Shown here: positions 3,820 through 53,255 of the stretch, piece after piece
Layout: each line of letters begins with the position of its first letter
How positions within the stretch are numbered: the stretch's first letter is position 1
Assembly: GCF_003568845.1 (NCBI RefSeq)
Contig: NZ_CP030127.1
Coordinates: 248,001-312,000, forward strand
Source: Indioceanicola profundi
GTDB taxonomy: Bacteria; Pseudomonadota; Alphaproteobacteria; Azospirillales; Azospirillaceae
Length of the DNA stretch: 64,000 nucleotides
Reading direction: 5' to 3'
The notes under the pieces: model-generated
Told to the model about the DNA's origin: nothing
What the model saw: only the letters and a program-made list of their open reading frames with translations
Database searches by the model: none
Translations under genes and position numbers: made by a program

Positions 3820-5454
3820 CTATTTCGCGGCTGCGACCTTGAGGATGGTATCAAGACCAGAGATGTTCGTGGCTTCCGACATAAGCTGTCCATCCTGGGC
3901 CGGAGCGAGCGGGGCGAAGTCCGGGACCACGACCTTGCCCTGCTCCAGATCGCGGCTGATCTGCGCGATGGCCGCGGCCAGCGCGTCCACGTCCGCTCCC
4001 TCCACCACCTCGGGCAGCGGGTCCAGCCCGGCCGAGGCATAGACCGACCCTAGCGCGTTCTGCACCTCCGCATAGGCCCGGTCGCGCGCGCGTGTCGCCA
4101 GCAGCGCGCTCGCCGCCGCCCGCACCCGCTCCAGCCGGGTCTGCGCCTCCGACAGCGCGGCACTTTCCGTGTTGGACAGGATGCGCTGCTCCACATCCTG
4201 CAACGCCGCCGCCCGGGTGAACAGCGTCGTGGCCCGGCCATAGCGGTGCCAGGCCAGGTTTACCTGGGTCAGCACCGCCATGCGCAGCGCCAGCCGGCGG
4301 GCCTCCGCCACCTCCATGCGCGCGGCGTTCGCCTGCTTCACCTTGCTCCAGTTCAACAGCGTGAACAGGTTCCAGGTCACCTGCACCCCGGCATCGGCCC
4401 AGTCCTGGTTCACCAGATAGGAGTTGGTGTCGTAGTTCAGCCCGGCATACAGGTTCGCCCCCGGCAGCAGCCGCAGCAAAGCGCTGCGCGCCTCGGCCGC
4501 CGCGTTGCGGGCCAGATAGGCCTCTTCCCGGATCTCCGGCCGCTTCACCATGGCCACCCGCTCCAGCGCGTCCAGCCGTAGCGGCATGGCCGGCACGGCC
4601 AGCTGGGTCTCGGCCGGCACGGCCAGCCGGTACTCGCTGCCGGGAGGCAGGTTCATCAGGCTGGCCAGCTGCGACTTGGCCACGGCCAGCTCGGCGTCCA
4701 CAGCCTCGAGCTGCTGCACGATCTCCAGCATGGCCTTCTGGAAGCGCAGCGCATCGAGCGGCGGCAGCAGGCGCTGGCGCTCGGTCTGCTCGGCATAGGC
4801 CAGCACCTCGCGGGCTTGCGTGAGGATGGCGTCCACTTGCGGCCGCAGCCGGTCGGCGGTGACGGCCTCCCACCAAGCGGCGCGCACCTGCTCGGAGAGG
4901 GCCAGCACCACGCGGCGGCGGCGTTCCTCGGCGGCGAGGATGCGGTTGGCCTGGCTTTTGGCGCCGTAGTAGCTCAGGCCGAAATCCAGGATGTTCCAGG
5001 AGAGCTGCACGTCGGCGGTGCCGGAGGTGCGCTCCTGGCTGGTCGAGGGCTCGAGCGAGACATTGCCGGTGGCGACCGATTCGGAAACGGAGGCCTGGGT
5101 GTTGGAGCGGGTGCGCAGGCCGGCACGGGTGGTGAGCTTGGGCAGCAGGTCCTGCTTGGAGACGTCCAGCAGGCTGTCCTCCAGCGCGCGCTCCATCACG
5201 GTCTGGCGGTGCTGGAGGTTGTACTTGAAGGCGCGCGCCAGCGCCTGCTCCAGGGTCACAGGGCCGCTCACCGCTTCCTGTGCCGCGAACATCGCCGCAC
5301 GGTCCGACACAGCCTGCCCGATCTGCTCCTCCAAACTCATCGGCTCAGGGCGGATCGCGCAGGCCGAAAGGGCGGCGAGGAGCAGGGCGGAGGTGCCGAG
5401 CAGGCGCGCCCGCCGGGCGAAGTTGAAAGAACGCGGGCTCTGCGCGTGGATCAT
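3820..5454 (-). CDS. TolC-family outer-membrane efflux/secretion lipoprotein
   Basis: The 544-residue protein starts at MIHAQS. A lipoprotein signal follows, with lipobox LSAC and the acylated Cys at position 32. The ATG at 5454 is preceded by GAAAGGG. The rest is the duplicated, alanine- and glutamine-rich helical hairpin pattern of TolC/OprM proteins (VTLEQALARAFKYN, repeats of LxxAxxARP-like helices, WNLF near residue 330). Such proteins form trimeric outer-membrane channels for type I secretion or RND efflux. It lies 118 bp downstream of, and on the same strand as, the giant LEPR adhesin, so it is likely the exit channel for it. No ABC transporter or membrane fusion protein gene lies alongside; those partners must be encoded elsewhere. 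Confidence 0.9.
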   Translation of the reverse strand: MIHAQSPRSFNFARRARLLGTSALLLAALSACAIRPEPMSLEEQIGQAVSDRAAMFAAQEAVSGPVTLEQALARAFKYNLQHRQTVMERALEDSLLDVSKQDLLPKLTTRAGLRTRSNTQASVSESVATGNVSLEPSTSQERTSGTADVQLSWNILDFGLSYYGAKSQANRILAAEERRRRVVLALSEQVRAAWWEAVTADRLRPQVDAILTQAREVLAYAEQTERQRLLPPLDALRFQKAMLEIVQQLEAVDAELAVAKSQLASLMNLPPGSEYRLAVPAETQLAVPAMPLRLDALERVAMVKRPEIREEAYLARNAAAEARSALLRLLPGANLYAGLNYDTNSYLVNQDWADAGVQVTWNLFTLLNWSKVKQANAARMEVAEARRLALRMAVLTQVNLAWHRYGRATTLFTRAAALQDVEQRILSNTESAALSEAQTRLERVRAAASALLATRARDRAYAEVQNALGSVYASAGLDPLPEVVEGADVDALAAAIAQISRDLEQGKVVVPDFAPLAPAQDGQLMSEATNISGLDTILKVAAAK

Positions 5455-48664: not shown

Positions 48665-49117
48665 ATGGCTAGAATCCCTAGTGCGTCACTTGCCGCGATG
48701 TGCATCGCCGCCACTTTCGGCATGGCAGCCTCCGCGTCCGAACTGGTCTACCGCCCGGTCAATCCGTCCTTCGGCGGGGACCCGTACAACAGCAACCATC
48801 TTCTGGGCACGGCCAACGCCAACGATCGGTTCAAGGACCCGAACGCGGTCGATCCCTTCGACCTGATCGAAACAGACCCCCAGCGGCAGCTTGAACAGGC
48901 CCTGCGGGATAATCTGATCTCTTCCCTGGCGTCCCAGGCGTCCCAGACGATCCAGAACGCCGGGCCGGGCACCTACGAGATCGGCGGCACCCGTATCGTG
49001 ATCAGCGATGCCAACGGGCAGCGGACGACAACGATCACGAACCTGGATACCGGCGCCACCAGCCGGATCGTTGCGCCGATCCCGACCGGCACCCCTGGAC
49101 TGCCCGGCGGCTTCTGA
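48665..49117 (+). CDS. csgF: Curli assembly factor CsgF
   Basis: The 150-residue protein starts at MARIPSASLA, with GGAGGGAGAAAC upstream. A signal peptide ends near AASASEL. The mature N-terminus LVYRPVNPSFGGDPYN is the conserved CsgF segment. In E. coli that segment binds inside the CsgG pore and couples it to the nucleator. The C-terminal part carries a beta-rich domain with ITNLDTGATSRI. It is first in an operon with csgG and curlin genes. Length is close to E. coli CsgF (138 aa). A mature N-terminus this well conserved implies that the CsgG-CsgF contact is kept. Confidence 0.92.
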   Translation: MARIPSASLAAMCIAATFGMAASASELVYRPVNPSFGGDPYNSNHLLGTANANDRFKDPNAVDPFDLIETDPQRQLEQALRDNLISSLASQASQTIQNAGPGTYEIGGTRIVISDANGQRTTTITNLDTGATSRIVAPIPTGTPGLPGGF

Positions 49118-49186: not shown

Positions 49187-50257
49187 ATGCGTGCAATCCG
49201 TAACCTGCTGCTGGCCGCGGCAGGAACTCTCGCGCTCGCCGCCTGTACATCAGGCCCGTCGCACCTGGAACTGGCGCGCTCCGAAGCGCCCGAACATGAA
49301 CTCAGGACCGGAGCCCTGAACGAGCTCCAGTCCCTGCCGCCGCCGCTGCACAGGATCGCGGTCGCCGTTTACGGCTTCAATGATATGACCGGGCAGAACA
49401 AGCCCAATGAGAGCTTTCCGGAATATTCCCGCGCCGTGACCCAGGGCGGGACCTCGATCCTGATCAATGCCCTGGAACGCGCCGGAGACAGATCCTGGTT
49501 CACGCCCGTCGAGCGCTCTTCTCTGCAAGCCTTGCTCCAGGAGCGGCAGATCATCCGGGTCACCCGCCAGGAATATGGCGGCGACAACCTTCCGCCTCTG
49601 CCGCCGCTGACCTATGCCGGCATCATGCTGGACGGCGGCATCATAGGCTATGACAGCAACACGCTGACGGGCGGCTTCGGCGCGCGGTTCCTCGGGATCG
49701 GCGCCAGCACGCAGTACCGCCGGGACACCGTGACGGTCTATCTGCGGGCCGTCAGCGTCCGGACCGGCGAGGTCCTGAAAAGCGTCAATATCAGCAAGAC
49801 GATCTACTCGATCGGCGTGGATGGCGGCGTCTTCAAGTATGTCGACTACAAGAAGCTGCTGGAAATCGAGACCGGCCTCACCACCAACGAGCCGGTGACA
49901 CTGGCGGTCAAGACCGCGGTCGAGAAAGCCGTCCACACGCTGATCATGGAAGGGCTGATCGACGGGTACTGGACCTTACAGGACCGGTCCCTGGTGGAGC
50001 CCCTGGTCAGCCGGTACACGCAGGAGCGGGACGGCGTCTACGGCGTCGAGACCATTCATGCCTACCAGAACGGGGTCCGGCTGGAGCCGCCGACGAGCCA
50101 ATCGCCGGTCATTCGGAACGGAAGCCCGGAAGCCGAACTGGCCCCCAAGGTGGAGCCGGGCGTGCCGGAGGCGTCCAGCGGGCCGACCTACGTGCTGCCC
50201 AGCGGCCAGAACCCGATCCCGTCCGGGGATCGCCGGAGGATGCCGCCCGGCAAGTAA
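49187..50257 (+). CDS. csgG: Curli secretion channel CsgG (with C-terminal extension)
   Basis: The 356-residue lipoprotein has lipobox LAAC (acylated Cys at 20). It matches E. coli CsgG along its length: AVAVYGFNDMTGQNKP; WFTPVERSSLQALLQERQIIR; DGGIIGYDSNTLTGGFGARF; GIGASTQY; SVNISKTIYSIGVDGGVFKYVDYKKLLE; TNEPVTLA. In E. coli this nonameric pore exports curlins across the outer membrane. A ~75-residue Pro-rich C-terminal tail (from RYTQERD) goes beyond E. coli's length (277 aa). The constriction loop differs from E. coli (see findings). Partner genes csgF and curlins are adjacent. Confidence 0.95.
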   Translation: MRAIRNLLLAAAGTLALAACTSGPSHLELARSEAPEHELRTGALNELQSLPPPLHRIAVAVYGFNDMTGQNKPNESFPEYSRAVTQGGTSILINALERAGDRSWFTPVERSSLQALLQERQIIRVTRQEYGGDNLPPLPPLTYAGIMLDGGIIGYDSNTLTGGFGARFLGIGASTQYRRDTVTVYLRAVSVRTGEVLKSVNISKTIYSIGVDGGVFKYVDYKKLLEIETGLTTNEPVTLAVKTAVEKAVHTLIMEGLIDGYWTLQDRSLVEPLVSRYTQERDGVYGVETIHAYQNGVRLEPPTSQSPVIRNGSPEAELAPKVEPGVPEASSGPTYVLPSGQNPIPSGDRRRMPPGK

Positions 50258-50269
50258 TCCTGATCTTCA

Positions 50270-50351
50270 CCGGGGGATCTATTCCGGTCCCCCGGTCTCC
50301 ACCCAGTGCATTCGTTGGGACCTTTGACATGTCCGCTGGGCAATTCCGCCC
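50270..50351 (+). promoter_or_regulatory. Three-stem RNA element A upstream of the first curlin gene
   Basis: Stem 1: 50270-50277 with 50288-50295, loop TCTATTCCGG. Then ATTCGTT, stem 2 GGAC-GTCC (50318-50321 with 50331-50334) and stem 3 GGGC-GCCC (50338-50341 with 50348-50351). The same arrangement recurs before the second curlin gene, with compensating base changes. Confidence 0.65.
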
Positions 50352-50379
50352 GATTATAGAAGCGAAAGGCTAAAATCCC

Positions 50380-51516
50380 ATGCGCAAAACACTTCTCGCG
50401 GCAGCGGCCCTGATCGCCTTGACCTCTCCGGCCATGGCAGGCGAGTTCAGCGACGCCTATATCCTGCAGATCGGCGGCTCCAACGCCGCGACCCAGGACC
50501 AGACCGGCTCCCGGCATTCCGCTGCGACTGTGCAGGCTGGCGATTTCAACTTGGCCGAAACCGTCCAGACCGGCTCCTACAATACCGGGCTGATCCTCCA
50601 GGCCGGCGACAAGAACAACGCCTTTCAGAGCCAGACCCGGGGCGGCGATGACAACTTCGCCAGCGCGAGCCAGAGCGGCGACTATCACTGGGCCTTCCAG
50701 AACCAGTATGGCGACGACAACTTCGCCAAGCTGACCCAGGTCGGGCGGAACAACCTCAGCCGCTCCACCCAGACCGGCGACGACGGCATGGTCCTCTCGT
50801 ACCAGGACGGTCGGTGGAACCGGTCCTACGTGACCCAGGAGTCGGATGAAAGCTTCGCCAAGGTGGTCCAGATCGGCGACCGCAACGAGAACAACCTGAC
50901 CCAGAAGGGCAAGGCCGACCACAAGGCCACCGTACTCCAGGTCGGTGACTACAACACTGCCGACCAGTGGCAGGACGGTAAGAAGAACGAGGCCGATGTG
51001 GTCCAGATCGGTGACCGCAACGATGCCGAGCAGCGCCAGTACGGCGAGACCAGCGACGCCAAGATCGTCCAGATCGGCGACGACAACGAAGGCACCCAGT
51101 TCCAGAGCAGCTCCGCCTCCGGCAACGACCTGGACATCGTCCAGATCGGCGACAAGAACGAGGCCGACCAGACCCAGTTCGGCCGCGGCAGCGACGGGCT
51201 GGCGATCCAGATCGGCGGCGGCAACAAGGCCGTCCAGCTGCAGAGCGGTCCCGAGCATGAGGCCAAAATCCTCCAGGTCGGCATCGGCAACGACGCCAAC
51301 CAGGAGCAGCGCGGCAACGTGTTCGAGGCCACGATCCTGCAGGTCGGCGGCTGGAACACCGCCGATCAGGTCCAGTATGGCGCCCGTGACAACGAGGCCG
51401 TCGCCGTCCAGGCCGGCTTCTACAACACCGTGACGCAGAGCCAGGACGGCCGCGCCCATGAGGCGATGGCGGTCCAGGTCGGCTGGAACAACAGCGCCAC
51501 CCAGACCCAGAAGTAA
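50380..51516 (+). CDS. Curlin-repeat amyloid subunit 1 (CsgA-like, about 32 half-repeats)
   Basis: The 378-residue protein has a signal peptide (MRKTLLAAAALIALTSPAMA) and then about 32 half-repeats of ~11 residues. They follow the pattern xAxxxQxGxxN, i.e. the alternating strands of a curlin beta-solenoid, equal to ~16 rungs. E. coli CsgA has five. Each rung keeps the Gln/Asn ladder (VVQIGDRN, VLQVGDYN, ILQVGGWN). The repeats are rich in Asp/Glu and Lys/Arg compared with CsgA. It is the largest of three curlin genes here and is the likely main fibre subunit. The start is ATG 50380 with AAAGG upstream. Confidence 0.9.
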   Translation: MRKTLLAAAALIALTSPAMAGEFSDAYILQIGGSNAATQDQTGSRHSAATVQAGDFNLAETVQTGSYNTGLILQAGDKNNAFQSQTRGGDDNFASASQSGDYHWAFQNQYGDDNFAKLTQVGRNNLSRSTQTGDDGMVLSYQDGRWNRSYVTQESDESFAKVVQIGDRNENNLTQKGKADHKATVLQVGDYNTADQWQDGKKNEADVVQIGDRNDAEQRQYGETSDAKIVQIGDDNEGTQFQSSSASGNDLDIVQIGDKNEADQTQFGRGSDGLAIQIGGGNKAVQLQSGPEHEAKILQVGIGNDANQEQRGNVFEATILQVGGWNTADQVQYGARDNEAVAVQAGFYNTVTQSQDGRAHEAMAVQVGWNNSATQTQK

Positions 51517-51524
51517 TCGGCTGC

Positions 51525-51605
51525 GGGTGGGGGTCTATTCCGGCCCCCACCCTCCTCTCCCGCCTATTCGTTCGGACCTTTCCCATCGGTCCGGGGCAAT
51601 GCCCC
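51525..51605 (+). promoter_or_regulatory. Three-stem RNA element B upstream of the second curlin gene
   Basis: Stem 1: 51525-51533 with 51544-51552, with loop TCTATTCCGG identical to element A. Then ATTCGTT, stem 2 GGACC-GGTCC (51574-51578 with 51588-51592) and stem 3 GGGGC-GCCCC (51593-51597 with 51601-51605). The stems are longer than in element A, but order and spacing are the same. Confidence 0.65.
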
Positions 51606-51633
51606 TCCACCACCCCATAGAAGAGAAACAATC

Positions 51634-52320: not shown

Positions 52321-52331
52321 TCCGGCCGGTC

Positions 52332-52355
52332 AATGGGGGACTTCGGTCCCCCATT
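52332..52355 (+). terminator. 10-bp UUCG hairpin between curlin 2 and curlin 3
   Basis: AATGGGGGAC pairs with GTCCCCCATT (52332-52341 with 52346-52355) around a TTCG tetraloop closed by C-G, one of the most stable RNA hairpins. No T-run follows. It is likely an mRNA stability or partial-termination element between the cistrons. Confidence 0.7.
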
Positions 52356-52384
52356 AACTTCAACGACAGATCGAGGCTGAAATC

Positions 52385-52918: not shown

Positions 52919-53255
52919 ACCGCCGCAACAATCGGTGTCCAGGACACCGGCACCCGCACGGCCTTTGTCAGAGGCCGGGCCGGGGCGTCAGCCCCGAGGA
53001 TCGCCCCGGCGATCCGGATTTTAGCCAGCCTCAACCCGGCATGCCCCCATGCCGGGTCTTTTCCATGTCCGCTCGCTGCCCGCAACTGCCTTCCGCATCG
53101 AGAATGCGGGGCGTCACACGCCGTCTGCAACTGTTGACGACCTGATCGCCAAGCCGTCGGCAGGAATGAAAGTGCAGCGGCCCGGTCCTGCGCAGGCCGA
53201 TCAGTAGTCTGCGGCGCATCGATTGGGAACAGAACCGGAAGGATTGCTTGAACAG
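52919..53255. other. Intergenic region after the curlin genes
   Basis: About 340 bp. It contains two small hairpins (GGGGC-GCCCC at 52982-52995) and the strong terminator listed at 53034-53062. No gene is evident. Its right end holds the ribosome-binding site of the DUF2254 gene. Confidence 0.6.
53034..53062 (+). terminator. Rho-independent terminator of the curli operon
   Basis: A perfect 10-bp stem (ACCCGGCATG with CATGCCGGGT, 53034-53043 and 53048-53057) with a CCCC loop is followed by CTTTT. It lies 115 bp after the third curlin gene. Confidence 0.85.

Follow-up and report, generated by a model that had tools for sequence, protein, structure and literature searches.

The window, a stretch of 64,000 nucleotides from Indioceanicola profundi, contains a curli gene cluster in the order csgF, csgG, major curlin 1, major curlin 2, and curlin 3, the last of these in the csgB position (Table 1). 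The gaps in front of curlins 1 and 2 (50258 to 50379 and 51517 to 51633) follow the plan described in the original prediction: both have a copy of stem 1 with the shared sequence TCTATTCCGG, then ATTCGTT, and then two smaller hairpins, stems 2 and 3. The 10-nt sequence TCTATTCCGG had been read as the loop of stem 1. It is common to both copies but is partly paired, the fold being an 11-bp stem closed by the 6-nt loop UAUUCC. Taken whole, the gaps in front of these two curlins show only a moderate folding advantage over shuffled sequences (z of -1.63 and -2.38). The third gap (52321 to 52384), before the minor curlin, has a strong hairpin of its own (z of -3.49) and no ATTCGTT element.

Table 1. 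Features of the curli cluster and its intercistronic gaps, in window coordinates
Feature	Position	Strand	Match
csgF	48665..49117	+	Pfam PF10614 CsgF, E 1.1e-22
csgG	49187..50257	+	Pfam PF03783 CsgG, E 5.8e-60
Stem 1 copy 1, intercistronic GC hairpin 3' of csgG, ACCGGGGGATC-TATTCC-GGTCCCCCGGT	50269..50296	+	
ATTCGTT box copy 1, core of the conserved element	50310..50316	+	Covariance model R1 at 50308-50337, 33.3 bits (sequence in R1 training set)
Stem 2 copy 1, GGAC-CTTTGACAT-GTCC	50318..50334	+	
Stem 3 copy 1, GGGC-AATTCC-GCCC	50338..50351	+	
Major curlin 1, 378 aa, curlin repeats	50380..51516	+	Pfam PF07012, E 3.1e-37
Stem 1 copy 2, hairpin 3' of curlin 1, GGGTGGGGGTC-TATTCC-GGCCCCCACCC	51525..51552	+	
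ATTCGTT box copy 2	51566..51572	+	Covariance model R1 at 51564-51595, 22.6 bits (sequence in R1 training set)
Stem 2 copy 2, GGACC-TTTCCCATC-GGTCC	51574..51592	+	
Stem 3 copy 2, GGGGC-AAT-GCCCC	51593..51605	+	
Major curlin 2, 228 aa	51634..52320	+	Pfam PF07012, E 8.9e-48
Third intercistronic hairpin, UUCG loop, 3' of curlin 2	52332..52355	+	
Minor curlin 3, csgB position, 177 aa	52385..52918	+	Pfam PF07012, E 8.7e-7

The conserved part of the major-curlin leaders

Relatives were found with the curlin protein and Pfam PF07012, and named relatives (including Skermanella aerolata, several Azospirillum species, and Telmatospirillum sp. J64-1) by CsgG alignment; the sample consists of 17 curli clusters from Azospirillaceae and Telmatospirillum sp. 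J64-1. The leaders read across these clusters share ATTCGTT, one further base, and a small hairpin that starts with G and has TTT at the start of its loop. The hairpin is 4 to 5 bp long, and its sequence is variable but covarying. This element lies in the gap between csgG and the first major curlin in 17 of 17 clusters, 49 to 110 nt from the curlin gene and once 210 nt from it, and it recurs in 5 of the 11 gaps between major curlins; none of the 17 gaps before the minor (last) curlin has it. At two loci (L066 and L068) the element overlaps the csgG stop codon and was counted by reading the leaders, not from the gap table. The boxes of two genomes (G081 and G097) are recognisable by eye and score below the model threshold. 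On the minus strand of one locus (L056, genome G007), a single csgG-to-curlin gap holds two elements, at 5101 and 5191 of the reverse complement, as if a gene between them had been lost; the orphan copy has the weaker stem.

In an ungapped comparison of 21 leaders, the information lay between about -5 and +17 relative to the box, and the flanks had almost none. In predicted folds the mean unpaired probability is 0.71 for the box versus 0.56 for the whole leader, and box A+T content is 73% versus 54%; the predicted hairpins are weak, at about -4 to -11 kcal/mol. As judged from these leaders, the conserved unit is AUUCGUU-N followed by stem 2 with its U-rich loop, not all three stems.

The original prediction had instead treated the three stems as one duplicated element. 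Both window gaps do share the order of the stems and the stem 1 loop, and TCTATTCC, at 50278 and 51534 of the window, recurs in the stem 1 loop of a Skermanella-group genome (G034, L055). Against this, the gap table for the 17 clusters shows that a strong stem 1 hairpin is missing from 7 of the 17 csgG-to-curlin gaps that carry the element and that GC hairpins of the stem 1 type also occur in gaps without it, including those before the minor curlin; their loops are otherwise mostly unrelated (UUCG, UCCG, GCAA, and others). Stem 3 was found only in the window, in Skermanella aerolata, and in Telmatospirillum (L112, with the same letters as window copy 1), and it is absent in Azospirillum. With stem 1 separating from stem 2 in relatives and stem 3 limited to three lineages, a single three-stem element is extremely unlikely.

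Stem 1 with its shared loop is a separate part, a generic hairpin 3' of the preceding gene's stop codon. Strong GC hairpins follow most curlin genes in the gap table, and these intercistronic hairpins look like 3'-side mRNA barriers, as in the puf operon of Rhodobacter, where an intercistronic hairpin is a decay barrier (PMC6238624). The puf operon, also alphaproteobacterial, offers a between-gene hairpin that resembles stem 1; the puf hairpin, however, is a 3' decay barrier, and its description mentions no AUUCGUU box joined to a covarying hairpin (PMC6238624). We rejected stem 1 as an intrinsic terminator because no run of U follows the GC stem in the curlin gaps of the window; one terminator-like site lies at 53034, after the cluster. 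A dispersed repeat was also rejected. TCTATTCCGG occurs 16 times genome-wide (14 beyond the window pair, with 5 for a reversed-pattern control), and the contexts read show no such hairpin and mostly look coding. The many intergenic genome copies expected if the element were REP-like were looked for and not found.

Covariation, strand, and range of the element

The compensating changes that the original prediction had noted between the two window copies come from stem 1, the part that is not conserved: 5 of its 11 pairs are changed on both sides, and for stems 2 and 3 the difference between copies is chiefly one of length. True covariation in stem 2 is visible only once relatives are included. 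In alignment A3, in which the 3' arm was placed by hand and the loops were shortened, a placement that favours pairing, all 72 cells are paired (100%), and the covariation score is 0.686 versus 0.246 for shuffled alignments (0 of 500 shuffles as high; ≤0.16 when slid). Pair 2 is G-C, A-U, C-G, or G-U; pair 3 is C-G, A-U, or U-G; and pair 4 is C-G, U-A, or U-G. In a blind search reaching 16 nt, the 4-nt arm found a partner in 16 of 21 leaders, compared with 6.1 leaders when the downstream sequence was shuffled and 9.4 when it was swapped, and the controls never reached 16 in 5000 trials. Alignment A6 gave 98.6% of cells paired and a score of 0.650 versus 0.294 shuffled (0 of 500), but it was aligned by and fitted to the covariance model and so is not an independent check.

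Folding of the 24 nt that follow the box is on average more stable than that of mononucleotide-shuffled versions (mean z of -1.8). The complementary strand of this region folds nearly as well, so the main argument for the strand is where the element sits in the leader; the G-U evidence for the plus strand is thin, amounting to 3 cells.

The compensatory changes found in relatives bear out the proposal of a selected RNA structure before curlins 1 and 2. Stem 2 also passes the refuting test set in the original prediction, in which the stems would be unpaired in homologues or the similarity only a recent duplication. The CsgG proteins of element-bearing relatives are 56 to 70% identical to the window CsgG and window curlins 1 and 2 are 39 to 43% identical to each other, and for this reason the similarity does not reflect recent duplication. 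These comparisons show a short cis-acting leader element of major curlin genes that selection keeps in Azospirillaceae and Telmatospirillum.

When 17 whole curlin-bearing genomes were searched with covariance model R2, 19 of the 22 matches fell in curli clusters, though the majority of these had gone into building the model; with R1, nearly all top matches over 82 family genomes were in curli clusters. The Telmatospirillum element, which is independent of the R1 training set, scored 27.2 bits with R1. Three R2 matches lie outside curli clusters: one of 32 bits (G009:C50), one of 24 bits about 40 kb from the curlin genes of the same genome (G091:C55:114845), and one of 22.4 bits inside an open frame (G030:C2). 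The G009 site (L080, G009:C50:12002-12033, minus strand, 29 to 32 bits) is the best match outside curli clusters. It is likewise preceded by a GC hairpin, and its neighbours are a fadB-like gene on one side and an acyl-CoA-dehydrogenase-like frame on the other (names from translations only).

Among 385 genomes of the class, most of them without curli, only the window's own element scored above 27 bits. No match was found at 70 named csgG loci outside Azospirillaceae and Telmatospirillum (Sphingomonadales, Caulobacterales, Acetobacteraceae, and others). A first contig scan with the window CsgG as the query found nothing. Weak model matches outside curlins (L089-L096, L100-L106, and L109-L111) were rejected; the ones read (L089-L096, L100-L103, and L109-L111) fall within or next to unrelated genes or score close to background. 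In three same-genus genomes without curlins (L090, L093, and L094), ATTCGTTTGTCCATTTTCGGCGGGC (in one copy ATTTCGTT) lies upstream of the same gene, with scores near background; one stretch of the downstream gene was searched and had no Pfam match.

No family in Rfam 15 reached its gathering score, which agrees with the original statement that no such element had been described, and the open-access literature searched held no description of one. Structured mRNA leaders are of a known kind; the AUUCGUU-hairpin family appears new. Within the genomes searched, the element is almost specific to major curlin genes in Azospirillum-type bacteria, and it therefore probably helps to set the amount of fibre protein made.

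Candidate mechanisms

The best model, to which we give somewhat less than an even chance, is that the major-curlin message is processed and its 5' end protected, by analogy with papBA and puf. The curli cluster would be transcribed as one message, and RNase E or a similar enzyme would cut in the A+U-rich, single-stranded box. The 5' end so created on the major-curlin segment would be shielded by the hairpin after the box, together with stem 3 where present, and each curlin gene would have its 3' end protected by the hairpins that follow it. The major-curlin message would then outlast the csgG and minor-curlin message, and fibre subunit would be made in excess, as happens with papBA and puf.

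In papBA, RNase E cuts upstream of the papA 5' stem-loop (PMC5927463). The two systems share an unstructured A+U-rich site with a hairpin directly after it, before a major fibre-subunit gene on a polycistronic message (PMC5927463), and the predicted folds of the curlin leaders have this layout, with the box mostly unpaired and the stem starting one base later, before the curlin gene. The curlin element differs in its seven near-fixed bases and loop UUU, in its repetition before paralogues, and in that cleavage here is predicted. The WUU of the RNase E motif RN/WUU is present, and a purine two bases before the cut is found in only about half of the leaders. Also counting against processing are the seven nearly fixed bases and fixed loop UUU, which exceed the general needs of an RNase E site, the weakness of the hairpins, the thin G-U evidence for the plus strand and similar folding of both strands, and the 32-bit match in G009:C50, which lies away from curlins.

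The strict conservation of the box is better explained by a specific partner than by processing, and for this reason we retain, as a somewhat unlikely alternative, the idea that box and hairpin are a candidate site for a trans-acting regulator. Either an RNA-binding protein or a small RNA whose seed is AACGAAU would then control the translation or stability of the major curlins together. Seven near-invariant, mostly unpaired bases, a fixed G at the base of the stem, and a fixed UUU suit such a sequence-specific partner, and the repetition of the element before paralogous genes is like that of a regulon site; yet at 49 to 110 nt upstream of the start codon the element is outside the usual window for small RNAs at the ribosome-binding site.

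The same upstream position and repetition per gene could belong to a DNA site, either a transcription factor operator or part of a promoter before each major curlin, and an inverted repeat can be an operator. We consider this improbable. No second conserved block at a fixed spacing was found in the 21 leaders, no sigma-70-like promoter was found in the gaps (weak evidence), and the stem arms change sequence together, unlike an operator read by its sequence. A sigma-54 site and a likeness to rRNA boxA (GCUCUUUG in Azospirillum), both considered by eye, were set aside, since from genus to genus the letters that match change along with their pairing partners.

The original prediction had also raised control of translation. 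A switch that hides or exposes the ribosome-binding site (a riboswitch or thermometer) would be in keeping with a structured leader of a biofilm gene, and the Erythrobacteraceae curlin leaders described below do have mutually exclusive helices covering that site. In the Azospirillaceae leaders, however, pairing of the box, arm, and loop is no better with the ribosome-binding site of the same leader than with those of other leaders (P of 0.64 to 0.96), in a comparison whose positive control, the stem arms, preferred their own partner (P of 0). The element is moreover only about 30 nt long and has no Rfam riboswitch match, and we regard such a switch as very unlikely. A tandem glycine/c-di-GMP riboswitch is associated with csgG-type genes (PMC9481103) and resembles the curlin element as a structured RNA linked to curli genes, but it is a large RNA with two aptamers, and the curlin element matches neither it nor any riboswitch family in Rfam.

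Curlin leaders in other lineages and curli control

A different conserved leader precedes the first curlin after csgG in Erythrobacteraceae, Sphingopyxis, and related MAGs (alignment A7, with 13 aligned loci: L136:5632-5730, L134:9090-9190, L145:5998-6097, and ten more, one locus having a doubtful Flavobacteriaceae label). There, GGUUAUCGCC can pair with GCGAUAACC upstream or with AAGGUGAUGC downstream, the latter containing the likely ribosome-binding site, and the helices are mutually exclusive. Pairing in the two helices is 92% and 96%; their covariation is not clearly above shuffles, the sequences being too alike, and only the inner hairpin exceeds its shuffles. We suggest this leader as a candidate translational switch.

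At Caulobacteraceae-type loci (L121 at 9169 and 10426; L122 at 9152 and 10409), CTTCGTCCG...GTTTGCC stands before successive curlins and is possibly another lineage-specific leader motif. First-curlin leaders at four further loci (L129, L132, L147, and L179, labelled Hyphomonas and other MAGs) share GGGGACA...GGCTGG-like blocks. Read together, these leaders suggest that several lineages of Alphaproteobacteria have structured major-curlin leaders and that the RNA differs from lineage to lineage.

Alphaproteobacteria are reported to be without csgD, the master regulator of curli in enteric bacteria (PMC3521004). We speculate, while thinking it unlikely, that the element is a dedicated recognition site through which some trans-acting RNA or protein sets how much major curlin is made relative to minor curlin, and that other alphaproteobacterial lineages evolved different leader RNAs to the same end. 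If true, a trans-acting site would jointly control the major-curlin messages in a class reported to be without csgD. A short RNA element that is nearly specific to curlins would be a direct handle on how curli are adjusted in these bacteria.
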